NCBI GenBank assembly: GCA_947626785.1
Contig: CANQTO010000025.1
Span: forward strand, 1-35,980
Length of the DNA stretch: 35,980 nucleotides
Direction: 5' to 3'
Origin: an uncultured Oscillospiraceae bacterium
Lineage (GTDB): Bacteria; Bacillota; Clostridia; Oscillospirales; Oscillospiraceae
The translations under genes and the position numbers were made by a program. Positions 6,703-16,742 of the stretch are shown here, piece by piece (the stretch's first letter is position 1; each line of letters starts with the position of its first letter). Under the pieces are notes generated by a model that saw nothing but the letters and a program-made list of their open reading frames with translations, searched no databases and was not told the DNA's origin.

Positions 6703-7527
6703 ATGACGATTTTGTATTCGATCTTAGTCCTTGGCCTGCTGGGCGGCGTCTTCGGCGCGGTCCTGGCCTTCGCCTCCAAGATCTTCTATGTGGAAGTGGA
6801 CCCCAAGCAGGAGGCCGTCCGTGCCTGCCTGGCCGGCGCTAACTGCGGCGGCTGCGGCTATCCCGGCTGTGACGGCTACGCCGCCGCCGTAGCGGCGGGG
6901 GAGGCCCCCACCAACCGCTGCGTGGCGGGCGGCCCCGAGGCCGCGGCCAAGATCGCCGAGATCATGGGCGTCTCCGCCGGCGCCGCCGAGAAGATGGTGG
7001 CCTTCGTGCCCTGCTCCGGCACCACCGGCCACGCGGAGCTGCGCTTCAACTACTCCGGCCCTGTGGACTGCCGGGCCGCCATGCTCTTCGGCGGCAAGAG
7101 CAACAAGACCTGCACCTTCGCCTGCATCGGCCTGGGCAACTGCACCCGCGCCTGCCAGTTCGACGCCATCCACATCGTGGACGGCGTGGCCAAGGTGGAC
7201 CGGTCCAAGTGCGTGGGCTGCGGCGCCTGTGCCGACGCCTGCCCCAAGAGCATCATCAAGCTGCTGCCCGAGAGCCAGAAGATCATGCCCGCCTGCTCCA
7301 ACCGGGACAAGGGCGCTAAGGTCATGAAGATGTGCGACTTCGGCTGCATCGGCTGTATGCGCTGCCAGCGGGAGTGCCCCGCCGACGCCATCACGGTCCA
7401 GGACAACCTGGCCGTGGTCAACATGGACAAGTGCGTCCAGTGCGGCCACTGCGCGGAGATCTGCCCGAGGAAGATCATCACCAGCTTCTATCCCCAGGTA
7501 AAGGTCCCCGCCGCCGCGGGCAAGTGA
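6703..7527 (+). CDS. rnfB: Rnf complex subunit RnfB (ferredoxin-facing polyferredoxin)
   Basis: Subunit that takes electrons from reduced ferredoxin, 274 aa. One N-terminal membrane helix (about 3-25) is followed by the four-Cys cluster domain (Cys48, 51, 56, 73). Several [4Fe-4S] motifs follow: Cys137/141/147/151, Cys170/173/176/180, Cys211/215/218/221/225 and Cys244/247/250/254. This multi-cluster architecture is the clostridial form, longer than enterobacterial RsxB (about 190 aa). It is the last gene of the operon; order C-D-G-E-A-B is the usual Firmicute order. GGAGG lies before the ATG. Confidence 0.96.
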   Translation: MTILYSILVLGLLGGVFGAVLAFASKIFYVEVDPKQEAVRACLAGANCGGCGYPGCDGYAAAVAAGEAPTNRCVAGGPEAAAKIAEIMGVSAGAAEKMVAFVPCSGTTGHAELRFNYSGPVDCRAAMLFGGKSNKTCTFACIGLGNCTRACQFDAIHIVDGVAKVDRSKCVGCGACADACPKSIIKLLPESQKIMPACSNRDKGAKVMKMCDFGCIGCMRCQRECPADAITVQDNLAVVNMDKCVQCGHCAEICPRKIITSFYPQVKVPAAAGK

Positions 7528-7551: not shown

Positions 7552-7590
7552 CTGAAAGAAGCAGCCTTTCGCAAGGCTGCTTCTTTCAGC
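7552..7590 (+). terminator. Terminator after rnfB
   Basis: CTGAAAGAAGCAGCCTT, loop TCGC, and the exact complement (7552-7589), 25 nt past the rnfB stop. The U-rich bases are within the 3' arm rather than after it, so termination strength is uncertain, but the hairpin is perfect. Confidence 0.65.
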
Positions 7591-7645
7591 TTGTAGATAA
7601 GTAGATAAAGTCCAGCGAAACTCATTACGAAGTCCAGTGGAGGAG

Positions 7646-7853
7646 GAATCAAATTTGTTTTTGAGGCAGCTTTGCCGCCTCAAAACACCCTAAGGCGAGC
7701 AAAGCGAGCCCTCGCTCCGACCAAACGGGGCGCAGCCCCTGCGATAAGCGCGAGTTCCTCAAATGCGAGCCCAGCGTTGTGCCCTTAGGGCACACGCGGG
7801 TCGCATTTGACATTCAAAAAACTCTTGCGCATGTGCGCAAGGGCTGATATAAT
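7646..7853 (+). repeat. 208-bp structured element, copy A
   Basis: Begins GAATCAAATTTGTTTTTGAG and ends with a -10 box; copy B (16296-16503) has the same length, order and ends. A constant hairpin comes first (TTGAGGC/GCCTCAA). Then come GACCAAACGGGGC with a GGGGC/GCCCC hairpin, GATAAGCGCGAG that can pair back with CTCGC, and a long stem (CAAATGCGA at 7760-7768 with TCGCATTTG at 7801-7809). The inner helix of that stem (TGTGCCC/GGGCACA) is replaced by a different but still paired sequence in copy B. It ends AAAAAACTCTTGC, which supplies the -35 of a promoter. It could be an RNA, an upstream promoter module or a small mobile repeat. Confidence 0.7.
7825..7853 (+). promoter_or_regulatory. Promoter at the end of element copy A
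   Basis: TTGCGC (7825-7830), 17-nt spacer, TATAAT (7848-7853). The -35 sits inside a perfect hairpin, CTTGCGC/GCGCAAG (7824-7841). It would drive the secreted-protein gene through a leader of roughly 310 nt. Confidence 0.75.
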
Positions 7854-8171: not shown

Positions 8172-11100
8172 ATGAAGAAATTTTTGAGTATTCTTCTGAC
8201 GGTTTCTATGCTGCTGTCCCTGTCCCTGACCGCGTTTGCGGACGAGGCCGGCGAGGCGGCGGAGCTGCCCGCTGACACGGCGGAACCGGAAACGGTCCTG
8301 GCGGCGGAAGCGCCGGCAGAAGAGGAAGTGCAGCCTGCGGCCCCGGCCCAGGAGGAAGAACCGTCTGCCCCAGCCTCCGAGGAGGAAGCTGCCCCGGTGG
8401 AAGAGCCGGCGGCGGACCCTGAGGAGCAGCCTGCGGAGGGACCCGCGGAAGAGGCAGAAGAGGAAGCCGCAGAGGAGCCTGCTGTTGGAGAGCCTGAGGA
8501 AGAGCCTGTGGCGGCGATCATGGGGATCGCCCCGATATTCATCGATAGCCCCGATCTGGAGCTCAAGGATGTCCAGGACCCCGGCGAGCTGGAAGATCCA
8601 AACCCGGGCAAGGACAAGGAGGGGCAGGGTGTCTGGCTCCATGTGGTCAACGGCAATTTCACCGACAGCTATGCCCAGCAGTCCTCCGTCTGGGTCGATT
8701 TTGCGGACGCGGAGGCCCGTACCCTCCCCGACGATATGAGGCAATATGTGCCCACCCGCACCAACGGGACCTTCCTGGGCTGGTATACCGAGCCCCCCAA
8801 AGAGACCCATGTGACCACGGATACCTATGATGTCTGGAAGACCGTGGCGGTCAACGGCACCGAGATCAAGGCCGGCGGTATCGTCCCCGATGGGGTCCAG
8901 ACCCTCTATGCCGCTTTTACGGACAAAGAGGCACCCGAGGAGCCGGATAAGCTCGTCACCTACTACCTGGACTGGAACGGCATCGGCGGGATGTGGGGGC
9001 ACTGCCTGACCTCCACCCGCAAATTTGACGCCGACGCAAACGGCTACCCGCTCAAGGCCGAAGATCTGGCCGTCCGCTACCTGAACTGGGACGGCGCGGC
9101 GGACGTCAGCGCCATGGACGCGCTGAGAGCCCACTGGGCGGCCAACACCTTCGGCGACGGCTATACCTTCAAAGGCTGGGCCACCGCGCCGGGCGCAACT
9201 GTGCCCGATGTTGAGGCCGGTCACGTGGTCAAGAGCGGCGACAGCCTCTATGCCGTGTGGGCCAAGGGCGACACCCAGAGCAAGGACTTTGACCGGACCG
9301 ACCCCGCCGCCGGCCCTGTGGAGAGCCTGCGCGTGGATACCGCCAGCGGCAGCCACACCACCGGCACCATGACCTGGTCCACCCACCAGAGCGCGGGAAG
9401 CGCCCTTCAGTTCAACGCGGCCGTCTTCCCTGTCCGGGCTACCTTCGCGGCCCTGACCTGGACCGTCAGCGACGGGAAGCAGAGCGTAGAAGTCAGCTAT
9501 GAGCCCCAGAAGGCGGGGGCCGTGAGCGGCAGCAAGACCTTGGGCGACGTGAAGCTGACAGCTACGGGCAAGTCCCTGACCATCGAGTACACGGGCGCGG
9601 ACGATAACGCCACGCCGGTCAGCCTCTCGGTCAACGTCAGCGCCGTCAGAGAGGATGGCAGCGCCGTCAAGGCTACCAATATAGACGCCACCGCCATCTT
9701 TACCCACAGCTGGAAACTCGTGGGCGAGACCACGGCTACGGCCTGCGGAGAATATTCCGTGTCGAAATATAGCTGCGCGGTGGACGGCTGCCACGCGGCG
9801 AGGGAGACAAAGGTGAGGCTGGAGCACGTCTACAATTCCCTCGTGACCTCCGGCGTTGAGATCCTCAGGGAGCCCAGCTGCACCGAGCCGGGCGCGAAGC
9901 AGCTCAAGTGCCTGCGCTGCGGCGCGCTGAAGGACAACGGCGAACAGTACCCCATCCCCGCCCTGGGCCATGTATGGGAAGTGGAGTCTGTTACGCCTGC
10001 CAGCTGCAACAAAAACGAGGTCGTTGAGAAGTGCACCCGCGAGGGCTGCTCTGCCAAGCAGAGCTCTCTGGTCCCCGCCAGCAACCCGGATCTGCATGTC
10101 TGGGTGACCTATGACAGCTACCACAGCTCCTGCAGCACCGACACCCAGTACCAGAGCTGCACGACCTGCGGCGCCCAGCGGACCATTACCGTGAGCGCCA
10201 AGAACGAGCACGCTTTCCAGTATACCGGCAGTATGCGCTATGACTGCCAGCACGTTCTCTATTCCTTTGAGTGCGCCTACGGCTGCGGCGCGAAGAAGAC
10301 CGAGCTGCGGCAGGAAGTCGGTCATGTCTACCGCTTCACCGATAAGATGCACTATGACTGCCAGCATGTTCTTTACTCCTATGAGTGTATCTATGGCTGC
10401 GGCGCGAAGAAGACCGAGCTGAAGAGAGAGGTCAACCATCTGTGGACAGACTGGACGCCCGGCCCCTCTACCATGTCCGGCGTGACGCAGATGGTCCGGA
10501 CCTGCAAGGACTGCGGCGCGACGGAGAGCAAGACCACCGCATCGCTGACTGTGAACGGAGGCGTCAGCACGCCTCAGCCGTCGGTCACTCCTGAGTCTAC
10601 CGTGGTTCAGGCCGCTATCAGCGGCGGCGCGGCCGGCTTGGGCGGCGCTGCCAATACCAAGACCTTCTACACCGAGGGCAGCAACGTCGGAAACGTCAGC
10701 TATGCCATGCTGACCGCCGCCGCTCCCGTATATGCCAAAGGTCCCGTGCTGGCCGCCGCGGTCAATATGACCGAGAGCGCTCCCGCCGCCCCTGTCAACA
10801 AGGTCTATGCCAGAAGCACCGTCGCCTCCGCCGCCAGCCATAAGTCGGCTGTGTCCAACTACGCCATGGAGAGCCCGGAGCTCACCGCCGCTCAGAGCGG
10901 GGAGGACGGCATCACGGTCAGCTGGAACAAGGTGGCCGGAGCCGCCCTGTACCGGGTGTTCTGCAAGGTCGACGGCGGCAGCTGGGTCAAGCTGGCCGAC
11001 ACCAAGGGCAGCAGCTACACCTGGGAGGACGCCCAGGAGGGGACCAATTACTCCTTTACCGTGCGCTGTGTCAGCGCGGACGGCAGGTCCTACACCAGCA

Positions 11101-11387
11101 GCTATGACGCCGACGGGCTGGCCGTGGCCAACTCTCTGGCGGTCCCGGAGCTCATCCGGGTCCGGGAGACCGGCAGCGGCATCCTGCTCAACTGGAGCCA
11201 GGTGGCCGGAGCCGATAAGTATCAGGTGCTCTGCAAGGTCGACGGCGGCAGCTGGGTCAAGCTGACTGACACCGCCGGCACCAGCTACACCTGGACCGAC
11301 GCAGGGAAAGAGACCGGCTACACCTTCACCGTCCAGGGCGTCAGCGCCGAGGGCGGCGCTCCCGTCACCTTAAGCGCCGGCAAATAA
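8172..11387 (+). CDS. Large secreted multidomain protein with Cys-rich repeats and two fibronectin type III modules
   Basis: 1071 aa. A clear signal peptide (cleavage after AFA, residue 23) is followed by a Glu/Pro/Ala-rich stretch to about 118, then beta-rich segments with FLGWYTE and FKGWAT motifs resembling Listeria-Bacteroides (InlB B-type) repeats (about 120-375). Residues about 510-790 carry many CxxC or CxxxC pairs, including two adjacent near-identical units with YGCGAKKTEL. Two fibronectin III-like modules (about 898-980 and 991-1071) share KVDGGSWVKL. No LPXTG anchor or membrane tail is seen, so it is probably released or held non-covalently. An AAAGGAG site sets the start. Function is unknown; adhesion or carbohydrate binding is a guess from domain style. 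Confidence 0.85.
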   Translation: MKKFLSILLTVSMLLSLSLTAFADEAGEAAELPADTAEPETVLAAEAPAEEEVQPAAPAQEEEPSAPASEEEAAPVEEPAADPEEQPAEGPAEEAEEEAAEEPAVGEPEEEPVAAIMGIAPIFIDSPDLELKDVQDPGELEDPNPGKDKEGQGVWLHVVNGNFTDSYAQQSSVWVDFADAEARTLPDDMRQYVPTRTNGTFLGWYTEPPKETHVTTDTYDVWKTVAVNGTEIKAGGIVPDGVQTLYAAFTDKEAPEEPDKLVTYYLDWNGIGGMWGHCLTSTRKFDADANGYPLKAEDLAVRYLNWDGAADVSAMDALRAHWAANTFGDGYTFKGWATAPGATVPDVEAGHVVKSGDSLYAVWAKGDTQSKDFDRTDPAAGPVESLRVDTASGSHTTGTMTWSTHQSAGSALQFNAAVFPVRATFAALTWTVSDGKQSVEVSYEPQKAGAVSGSKTLGDVKLTATGKSLTIEYTGADDNATPVSLSVNVSAVREDGSAVKATNIDATAIFTHSWKLVGETTATACGEYSVSKYSCAVDGCHAARETKVRLEHVYNSLVTSGVEILREPSCTEPGAKQLKCLRCGALKDNGEQYPIPALGHVWEVESVTPASCNKNEVVEKCTREGCSAKQSSLVPASNPDLHVWVTYDSYHSSCSTDTQYQSCTTCGAQRTITVSAKNEHAFQYTGSMRYDCQHVLYSFECAYGCGAKKTELRQEVGHVYRFTDKMHYDCQHVLYSYECIYGCGAKKTELKREVNHLWTDWTPGPSTMSGVTQMVRTCKDCGATESKTTASLTVNGGVSTPQPSVTPESTVVQAAISGGAAGLGGAANTKTFYTEGSNVGNVSYAMLTAAAPVYAKGPVLAAAVNMTESAPAAPVNKVYARSTVASAASHKSAVSNYAMESPELTAAQSGEDGITVSWNKVAGAALYRVFCKVDGGSWVKLADTKGSSYTWEDAQEGTNYSFTVRCVSADGRSYTSSYDADGLAVANSLAVPELIRVRETGSGILLNWSQVAGADKYQVLCKVDGGSWVKLTDTAGTSYTWTDAGKETGYTFTVQGVSAEGGAPVTLSAGK
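10233..10440 (+). repeat. Tandem in-gene repeat, 114-nt period
   Basis: Two adjacent copies begin at 10233 and 10347. Both encode YDCQHVLYS, a short variable piece and YGCGAKKTEL. Third-position changes between them show that the duplication is not very recent. The second copy is slightly truncated. Confidence 0.75.
10867..11384 (+). repeat. Duplicated fibronectin III-like modules, 270-nt period
   Basis: The block starting GTGGCCGGAGCC at 10932 recurs at 11202. The stretch coding KVDGGSWVKL is almost base-identical in both, while the module edges differ, which suggests recent duplication or gene conversion of the central part. Confidence 0.75.
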
Positions 11388-16219: not shown

Positions 16220-16248
16220 ATTATAATACCACCGGGCCGAAAGGTCAA
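16220..16248 (-). promoter_or_regulatory. Promoter of the lipoprotein-alr operon
   Basis: On the minus strand, TTGACC (16248-16243), 17-nt spacer, TATAAT (16225-16220), about 50 nt before the start codon. Near-consensus sigma-70 promoter. Confidence 0.85.
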
Positions 16249-16295
16249 ATGTGAACCCGTAGACGGGGCCTTTGAGTTCTCAATGAAACAGCAAA

Positions 16296-16503
16296 GAATC
16301 AAATTTGTTTTTGAGGCAGCTTTGCCGCCTCAAAAACTCCCTAAGCCCGCCCTGGGGCGGGCTCTCGCGCCGACCAAACGGGGCAAAGCCCCTGCGATAA
16401 GCGCGAGTCCCTCAAATGCGAGCCCAGCTTGCGCTCTCAGGCGCAAGCGGGTCGCATTTGATATGAAAAAACTCTTGCCAAGCGGGGCAGAATATGGTAT
16501 TAT
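16296..16503 (+). repeat. 208-bp structured element, copy B
   Basis: Same ends and block order as copy A (7646-7853). Differences cluster in helices and loops. A GCCCGCCC/GGGCGGGC hairpin (16345-16362) replaces a differently folded segment. CTCGCGC can pair with GCGCGAG over seven bases where copy A has five. The inner helix of the long stem is GCTTGCGC/GCGCAAGC. The flanking blocks GACCAAACGGGGC, TGCGATAAGCGCGAG, CTCAAATGCGAGCCCAGC and GCGGGTCGCATTTGA are unchanged. It ends in the promoter for the pheST T-box leader. Confidence 0.7.
16475..16503 (+). promoter_or_regulatory. Promoter at the end of element copy B (pheST)
   Basis: TTGCCA (16475-16480), 17-nt spacer, TATTAT (16498-16503). The -35 TTGC is the conserved right end of the repeated element. 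Transcription would begin near 16510, at the 5' edge of the T-box leader. Confidence 0.75.
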
Positions 16504-16509
16504 CAGCCT

Positions 16510-16742
16510 GCTGTGAACGGGAAAATAGTCCGTGAGCGCGGTTTGGCAGAGAGTGGGGGCCGCCGGCTGGAAGCCTCCTGGGCCGCAGGACTTGGTTCGC
16601 CCGGGAGCTCCGGCCAATCCCCGGCGTGAGATACGCGTTAAGTTCGTCAGAGCGCGGCGCTTCGGCGCCGAACGTGGGTGGTACCGCGGAAGCTTGGCTT
16701 TCGTCCCTCGTCCCGGATGACCGGGAGAGGGGCTTTTCTTTT
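16510..16742 (+). promoter_or_regulatory. T-box leader controlling pheS-pheT
   Basis: Senses uncharged tRNA-Phe and permits read-through. The conserved T-box sequence AACGTGGGTGGTACCGCGG is at 16671-16689, followed by a terminator that the antiterminator would compete with. A TTC at 16597-16599 is a candidate Phe specifier codon, although I did not fold stem I fully, so that assignment is tentative. Position directly before pheS agrees. Confidence 0.92.
16705..16742 (+). terminator. Conditional terminator of the T-box
   Basis: CCCTCGTCCCGG (16705-16716), loop ATGA, CCGGGAGAGGGG (16721-16732), then CTTTTCTTTT. This is the stem that forms when tRNA-Phe is charged. Confidence 0.88.

Follow-up and report, generated by a model that had tools for sequence, protein, structure and literature searches.

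A strongly conserved folded core in a short mobile element from gut bacteria, present in two copies in a contig of an uncultured Oscillospiraceae bacterium

Copies A and B and their boundaries

The window, by which we mean the whole analysed stretch of 35,980 nucleotides from an uncultured Oscillospiraceae bacterium, carries two related intergenic elements, copy A and copy B. Copy A stands after the gene of a ferredoxin-type protein, presumably rnfB, which ends at position 7527, and to its right lies the gene of an fn3-domain protein of 1071 aa (8172–11387). In at least two relatives (G004 and G011), the counterpart of the stretch near 11.5–14.4 kb of the window comes next instead, starting no more than roughly 300 bases from the gene that here precedes copy A. 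Downstream of copy B are genes with matches to PF01409 and PF17759. What we take to be a T-box-like leader of pheS and pheT (16520–16740, with GGGTGGTACCGCG at 16676–16688) lies directly downstream of this copy; it gave no Rfam match at the gathering threshold.

The first-pass annotation described two 208-bp elements at 7646–7853 and 16296–16503. Their places and the order of their blocks proved correct, and the two copies are alignable over about 165 common bases; the last 42–43 bases of both intervals, however, lie outside the element, and the common core stops at 7810 in copy A and at 16461 in copy B. Beyond these points, as far as 7853 and 16503, the DNA is promoter-like, with TTGCGC-17-TATAAT at 7825–7853 (+ strand) beyond copy A and TTGCCA-17-TATTAT at 16475–16503 (+ strand) in the presumed pheST leader. 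The A-rich stretch and promoter-like site 3′ of copy B have native counterparts in relatives, and a similar stretch is found at the empty sites of relatives lacking the element, which indicates that this DNA is native; we infer the same for the promoter-like stretch after copy A. The 13-mer AAAAAACTCTTGC, which overlaps the start of the promoter-like site at 7825–7853, was found in two of 288 loci, both of them the window copies.

On its left side copy A begins further upstream, at 7587, where the end motif CAGCTTGTAGATAAG (7587–7601) immediately follows a terminator-like hairpin (7555–7586, + strand) that is the likely insertion target. By eye, a hairpin stands 3′ of the preceding gene in all six relatives compared, and the element is at that site in none of them. 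The motif resembles the left ends of other copies and the ends of insertion sequences (IS). It is followed, all on the + strand, by a variable left arm (7602–7656, where identity among copies of the same genome is low), hairpin A (7657–7686, one A shorter than in copy B), stem B (7694–7710; GGCGAGC AAA GCGAGCC, with tandem G.A mismatches), stem C (7711–7754; internal loop CGACCAA/GCGATAA and one broken pair) and the last hairpin D (7758–7810), which bears an optional tip and forms the right end of the conserved part. In copy B the core with the last hairpin occupies 16296–16461 (+ strand), comprising hairpin A (16307–16337), stem B (16344–16363), stem C (16364–16407) and hairpin D (16411–16461), and the left end is uncertain within about 16240–16296. 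A right end repeat was not recognisable in either copy, and neither had duplicated flanks; both scored 7, where the controls averaged 7.9. No listed ORF of at least 80 aa lies wholly within 7587–7810, and the element is too short to hold a transposase ORF.

The inner helix TGTGCCC/GGGCACA of copy A and its counterpart GCTTGCGC/GCGCAAGC in copy B, put forward in the first-pass annotation as a compensatory exchange, are present as stated. The swap is real, but it concerns the optional tip of the last hairpin, which by eye is absent from many copies, and taken alone it is therefore weak evidence of compensation. The second pairing, CTCGC/GCGAG in copy A and CTCGCGC/GCGCGAG in copy B, also occurs as described, apart from one broken pair in stem C of copy A (CTCGCTC/GCGCGAG).

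The family and its conserved fold

Instead of two copies, the genome holds dozens: blastn gave 45 matches spread over many contigs of the 2.75-Mb assembly (98 contigs), some matches being fragments of the same copy. Among the 60 genomes searched, 20 had matches, namely the own genome, 18 of 36 relatives of the same genus and one weak case outside the genus. A covariance model of the core matched 10 of the 117 genomes of the order at an E-value of 0.001 or better (own included, two weak); with no more than 30 candidates scored in each genome, there were at least 30 matches in the own genome, at least 28 in G072 and at least 26 in G074. The spread through the order is patchy. An exact pattern was found in at least 98 stretches of named genome contigs; the records of the 80 loci listed belong to Oscillospiraceae, Ruminococcaceae, Clostridiales or Clostridia, and many of them carry names that point to sheep, goats, rabbits or other animals as the source. 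Copies A and B are two representatives of this family of short mobile elements from gut bacteria, whose folded core is strongly conserved.

The element measured about 211–227 bp in the four copies whose two ends could be located (10 tried). Read 5′ to 3′ on the + strand of the window, it consists of the left end motif, the variable arm, hairpin A, a linker, stem B, stem C and hairpin D, followed in some copies by a right end hairpin (AGCGTGTCGAC...GTCGACACGCT). Judged by eye, the left end CAGACTGTAGACAAAG and the right end hairpin read outward, AGCGTGTCGACAAAG, look alike. Hairpin A has the form GTTTTTGAGGCAGC TTT GCCGCCTCAAAAAC in copy B, and the commonest form of the linker between it and stem B is ACCCTGA. 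Stem B is commonly GGC GA GC NNN GC GA GCC, with tandem G.A/G.A mismatches in 80 of 104 rows, and stem C (CTCGCGC ... GCGCGAG) is built around the loop CGACCAA ... GCGATAA, present as an exact pair in 78 of 104 rows, and a variable inner stem. Among 31 copies of the own genome, mean pairwise identity was 0.86 in the core, 0.61 in the 50 bases before it and 0.58 in the far flank.

Several variants occur. In some copies stem B or stem C is enlarged, by eye, by roughly 200 bases rich in palindromes; in the long versions L103, L105–L108 and L063–L068 these begin near GTCGNCA/GACGTCAG and in several cases end near TTCTGACG, and they sit in stem B in one species and in stem C in another. The extra bases may be another element that lies inside this one. 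Solo hairpins like the end repeat alone (TGTAGACAAAG...CTTTGTCTACA) occur without the core in L099 (around 2765, − strand) and L100 (309–370). At five loci of G072, a member of another genus of the same family (L139, L147, L152, L156 and L160), a hairpin like hairpin A is kept and the region of stem C is quite different.

Copies A and B folded better than all 200 shuffled sequences (z −8.6 and −6.6), as did the opposite strand of copy A with respect to its shuffles (z −7.8). The first-pass annotation had read the two copies as a sign of selection on a folded structure, and the homologues strongly support this, mainly through stems other than the one it had chosen. Across the family the stem positions mostly keep pairing as they vary: in an alignment fitted to the model, and hence leaning towards it, 95.7% of the cells were paired against 77.4% in shuffles (113 distinct rows), two-sided changes occurred in 29 of 29 pairs, and cells with double changes numbered 450 against 99. 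None of 500 shuffles reached any of five measures, and when the structure was slid along the alignment, pairing fell to 30–58% of cells; relatedness is kept in these slid controls and not in the shuffles. The covariation count covered 115 rows; 11 of these, antisense or secondary hits, were dropped for the 104-row counts. Eight of the loci in the covariation count were also among the sequences from which the model was built. An unfitted MAFFT alignment of 44 seeds still gave two-sided changes in 21 of the 29 pairs. This comparative evidence shows that the fold is genuine and that selection on it acts at lineage level. Selection on each copy after insertion has left little sign, because five of the nine deviations in stems A and C of the own copies break a pair (three are compensated and one is a G-T).

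Stem cells with other than Watson-Crick pairs, read on the + strand, were G.T in 65 and A.C in 15 cases; counted per column, the figures were 16 and 8, a difference that is not significant (p 0.15). One A.C mismatch is fixed in hairpin A (49 of 104 rows; 76 of 86 copies of the genus) and points to the opposite strand, where it would be G.T. The tandem G.A pairs are best explained on the + strand of the window. We lean towards the + strand as the folded one, and towards RNA more than single-stranded DNA.

Insertion sites and the candidate mobiliser

Orthologous sites in relatives were empty at all three copies compared. At one copy of the own genome (G000:C4:45088) the element was absent from 15 of 15 relatives, in which, by eye, a terminator-like hairpin stands after the stop codon with a short spacer between them; the own copy adjoins that hairpin. 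At the copy B site it was found in none of seven alignable relatives (nine fetched), and at the copy A site in none of six. Family members stand elsewhere in the genomes of 11 of 15, 3 of 7 and 3 of 6 of these relatives, respectively; in the other 4, 4 and 3 the emptiness is trivial because they contain no family member at all.

Flanking repeats were evaluated in the 96 of 97 anchored copies that were long enough, a set that includes 39 from the own genome, 12 from G018 (the nearest relative) and some pieces of one copy. In seven of them the left and right flanks resembled each other above all swapped controls (scores 15–29; control maximum 13), four in the own genome (L006, L007, L010 and L030) and three in G018 (L069, L070 and L078). 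All seven repeats stand directly at the element ends; six are whole terminator-like hairpins of 21–41 nt (imperfect in L006), and that of L078 is the 3′ half of one. In 127 copies from genomes other than these two, exact flank repeats of at least 9 nt were present in 11 against 0.9 expected, and the repeats of L180, L215 and L233 are hairpins. Many copies of relatives carry a second type of end, YAG N C RATTGCGAAA, and in L193, L052, L032 and L036 this goes with ordinary non-palindromic repeats of 10–15 bp.

Of 28 anchored copies (173 looked at, copy A being outside the set), 14 had a hairpin adjoining their left end, against 155 of 1604 control windows (9.7%), which are probably mostly coding DNA. 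The narrow end pattern had given 7 of 10 and was widened with that result known; at least four of the 28 anchors (L032, L051, L171 and L229) look false and were retained. The element is short, multi-copy and dispersed, has target site duplications in a minority of copies and carries no transposase gene, as in MITEs. Given the end motifs, the minority of duplicated targets and the empty sites, it is a transposable repeat, and we hold with high confidence that it is a MITE, a non-autonomous mini-transposon. The choice offered in the first-pass annotation, a folded RNA or DNA rather than repeat decay, is accordingly a false one: the conserved fold stands, and the element that carries it is a transposable repeat as well.

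Candidate mobilisers were sought through PF13751, a domain that we take as the mark of the IS1182 family. Such transposases were found in 9 of 37 genomes searched; no IS1182-type transposase was found in the own genome (PF13751 at E up to 0.001; L122 protein at E up to 1e-60), and in G018 only one, cut by a contig end. The match to the domain had E-values of 7.7e-25 for L122 and 2.3e-23 for L123. L122, whose reading frame is broken near its start, has the ends CAGCTTGTCAAAAAAC/CAGCCTGTCAAAGAAC and an exact 32-nt hairpin repeat at both flanks; it was the only one with such a repeat among the first seven IS loci checked. A search with its protein gave 18 matches in 11 of 245 genomes (E up to 1e-60).

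Ends and repeats were then scored in 29 of the 31 transposase loci (all except L125 and L126). An end pair was recognised in 14 and none in another 14. In 12 of the 14 end-paired loci a stem-loop of 20–35 nt was directly repeated at both ends, exactly in 11 and, in L304, with about 33 of 35 bases agreeing; some of these stem-loops are off-centre hairpins judged by eye. With L310, which was found through its repeat, whole stem-loops flank 13 of the 29 loci, six of which are copies of one IS in one genome. L309 and L129 have an end pair and no repeat, and L129 has the IS end most like that of copy A. The ends of IS1182-type elements of related genera follow CAG N Y TGT, similar to the ends of the element; CAGCTTGTAGAAAAAC (L129) and CAGCCTGTAGAAAAAC (L308) may be compared with CAGCTTGTAGATAAG of copy A, although the likeness between MITE and IS is short. 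The element core was not found in 20 IS loci (best E 0.48).

Since both the ends and the target repeats are alike, elements of the type found in the own genome are probably mobilised in trans by an IS1182-type transposase. In the mechanism that we propose for this species and several relatives, the DDE transposase would recognise its target by shape, the element ends would be joined to both 5′ feet of a terminator stem-loop that has been extruded, and repair of the gaps would then duplicate the whole hairpin, so that the genes on both sides could keep a terminator. More weakly, we suggest that the + strand folds as a single-stranded nucleic acid, most likely RNA made by read-through from neighbouring genes, and that the fold helps the element itself to spread or persist and does not serve the host gene. 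Taken as a whole, the reading of a MITE with a fold-conserved core, moved in trans by a shape-recognising IS1182-type transposase, appears to us quite likely to be right.

Rival readings and relation to known elements

A functional RNA, either a cis-regulator or a small RNA, might be kept by the host with its dispersal being secondary. The very strong covariation and fixed loops would suit such an RNA, as would a core that is kept while the left arm varies and that is combined with at least two kinds of ends; the empty orthologous sites and the presence of the family in only 18 of 36 same-genus relatives speak against it. So does the placement, which is not leader-like and is unlike that of a riboswitch. 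With ORFs picked by length and not by a gene finder, 45 of the 124 copies with clear neighbours were antiparallel to both, 38 lay between convergent genes, only 22 were co-directional with both neighbours and 19 lay between divergent genes, and the right-hand gene pointed at the element in 83 of the 124. We consider this explanation unlikely. The fold might instead act as DNA, its hairpins or cruciform being bound by the transposase in the manner of the stem-loops in IS1182-type target choice. The same kind of transposase selects targets by stem-loop shape (IS1272, in the available text of PMC5678879; IS loci here), and the opposite strand folds well too. A cruciform, however, needs both strands, whereas the tandem G.A pairs and the G.T excess favour one of them (the fixed A.C mismatch excepted), and the core was not found in the IS loci searched. 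A DNA role is possible, though we would not bet on it.

Palindromes of the REP/BIME type, moved by a Y1 (RAYT) transposase, are likewise intergenic and numerous. Target duplications on insertion are not expected of the Y1 mechanism, and the own genome gave no Y1_Tnp match in a search that was positive in 5 of 14 control genomes; this reading is highly improbable. Equally little credence is due to plain repeat decay without structural selection, which would account for degenerate copies, such as copy A in its stem C, and is contradicted by the shuffles and by the collapse of slid structures. Within the reading as a mobile repeat, the core may help the element to spread or persist by way of RNA, may act as DNA during transposition or may be of use to the host. 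As a tentative proposal, less likely to be true than false, the core may be a structured RNA that is itself the selected unit, riding on at least two sets of transposon ends, one of which places it at terminators while duplicating them.

No named family had been known to fit, and this holds for Rfam and for searches of the open-licence literature. Rfam 15 gave no match in the window, and none of 24 weak matches in six related loci attained the gathering score. Viral contigs (searched with one exact pattern) and phages and plasmids (blastn with 166 bases of copy A) gave no match either. The element was not found in searches of open-licence papers by title and abstract; the candidate structured RNAs of human microbiomes in PMC8040213 may include the motif. 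The nearest kinds are YPAL of Yersinia, the bcr repeats and IS1272. YPAL/RU-2 is, like the present element, intergenic and folded (168 bp), has no TA at its ends, shows variable target duplications (3–26 bp) with targets at or next to dyad symmetry, and is known from empty and filled sites (PMC2229807). Compared by description only, it differs in that its inverted repeats are internal; the present element appears to have repeats at its ends, and there is an IS whose ends resemble them. The repeats bcr1–bcr18 of the Bacillus cereus group are also MITE-like and intergenic, and some have a conserved RNA structure; according to PMC3446304, about half (84/165) or 40% (62/155) of them lie within mRNA in two strains. 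They belong to other hosts and were likewise compared by description only. Correia/NEMIS, ERIC and RUP are small mobile repeats with stem-loop transcripts as well, but they form long end-to-end stem-loops, mostly with TA ends, according to PMC2229807, whereas the present element is built of several distinct stem domains whose internal loops are fixed.

IS1272 of the IS1182 family resembles the proposed mobiliser, as it has a DDE transposase and targets stem-loops without sequence preference (PMC5678879, available text). It replaces the stem-loop without duplication, whereas the ISs found here carry the stem-loop on both sides and the window element has no transposase. In pathway b of Fig. 13 of that paper, joining at the 5′ feet would duplicate the whole stem-loop, and the stem-loop-flanked IS loci look like products of this sketched pathway. 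The same text cites Siguier et al. for other palindrome-targeting members. Stem-loop duplication would not be a habit of the whole IS1182 family, because two other members are tabulated with 4-bp duplications in PMC3196728 and PMC3281130.

The element joins in one unit a mobile repeat and a covarying RNA-like fold, which are usually described apart. The IS loci provide natural examples that look as if IS1182-type elements had duplicated a whole stem-loop; the IS1272 paper (PMC5678879) proposed this pathway, and its available text reports no observation of it. If the tentative proposal of a selected structured RNA is true, every insertion would add a folded RNA to a 3′ end with termination kept. 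Insertion that duplicates a terminator would explain how dozens of intergenic copies can be present with little harm, and it makes the element a clean setting in which to study the role of the folded core.
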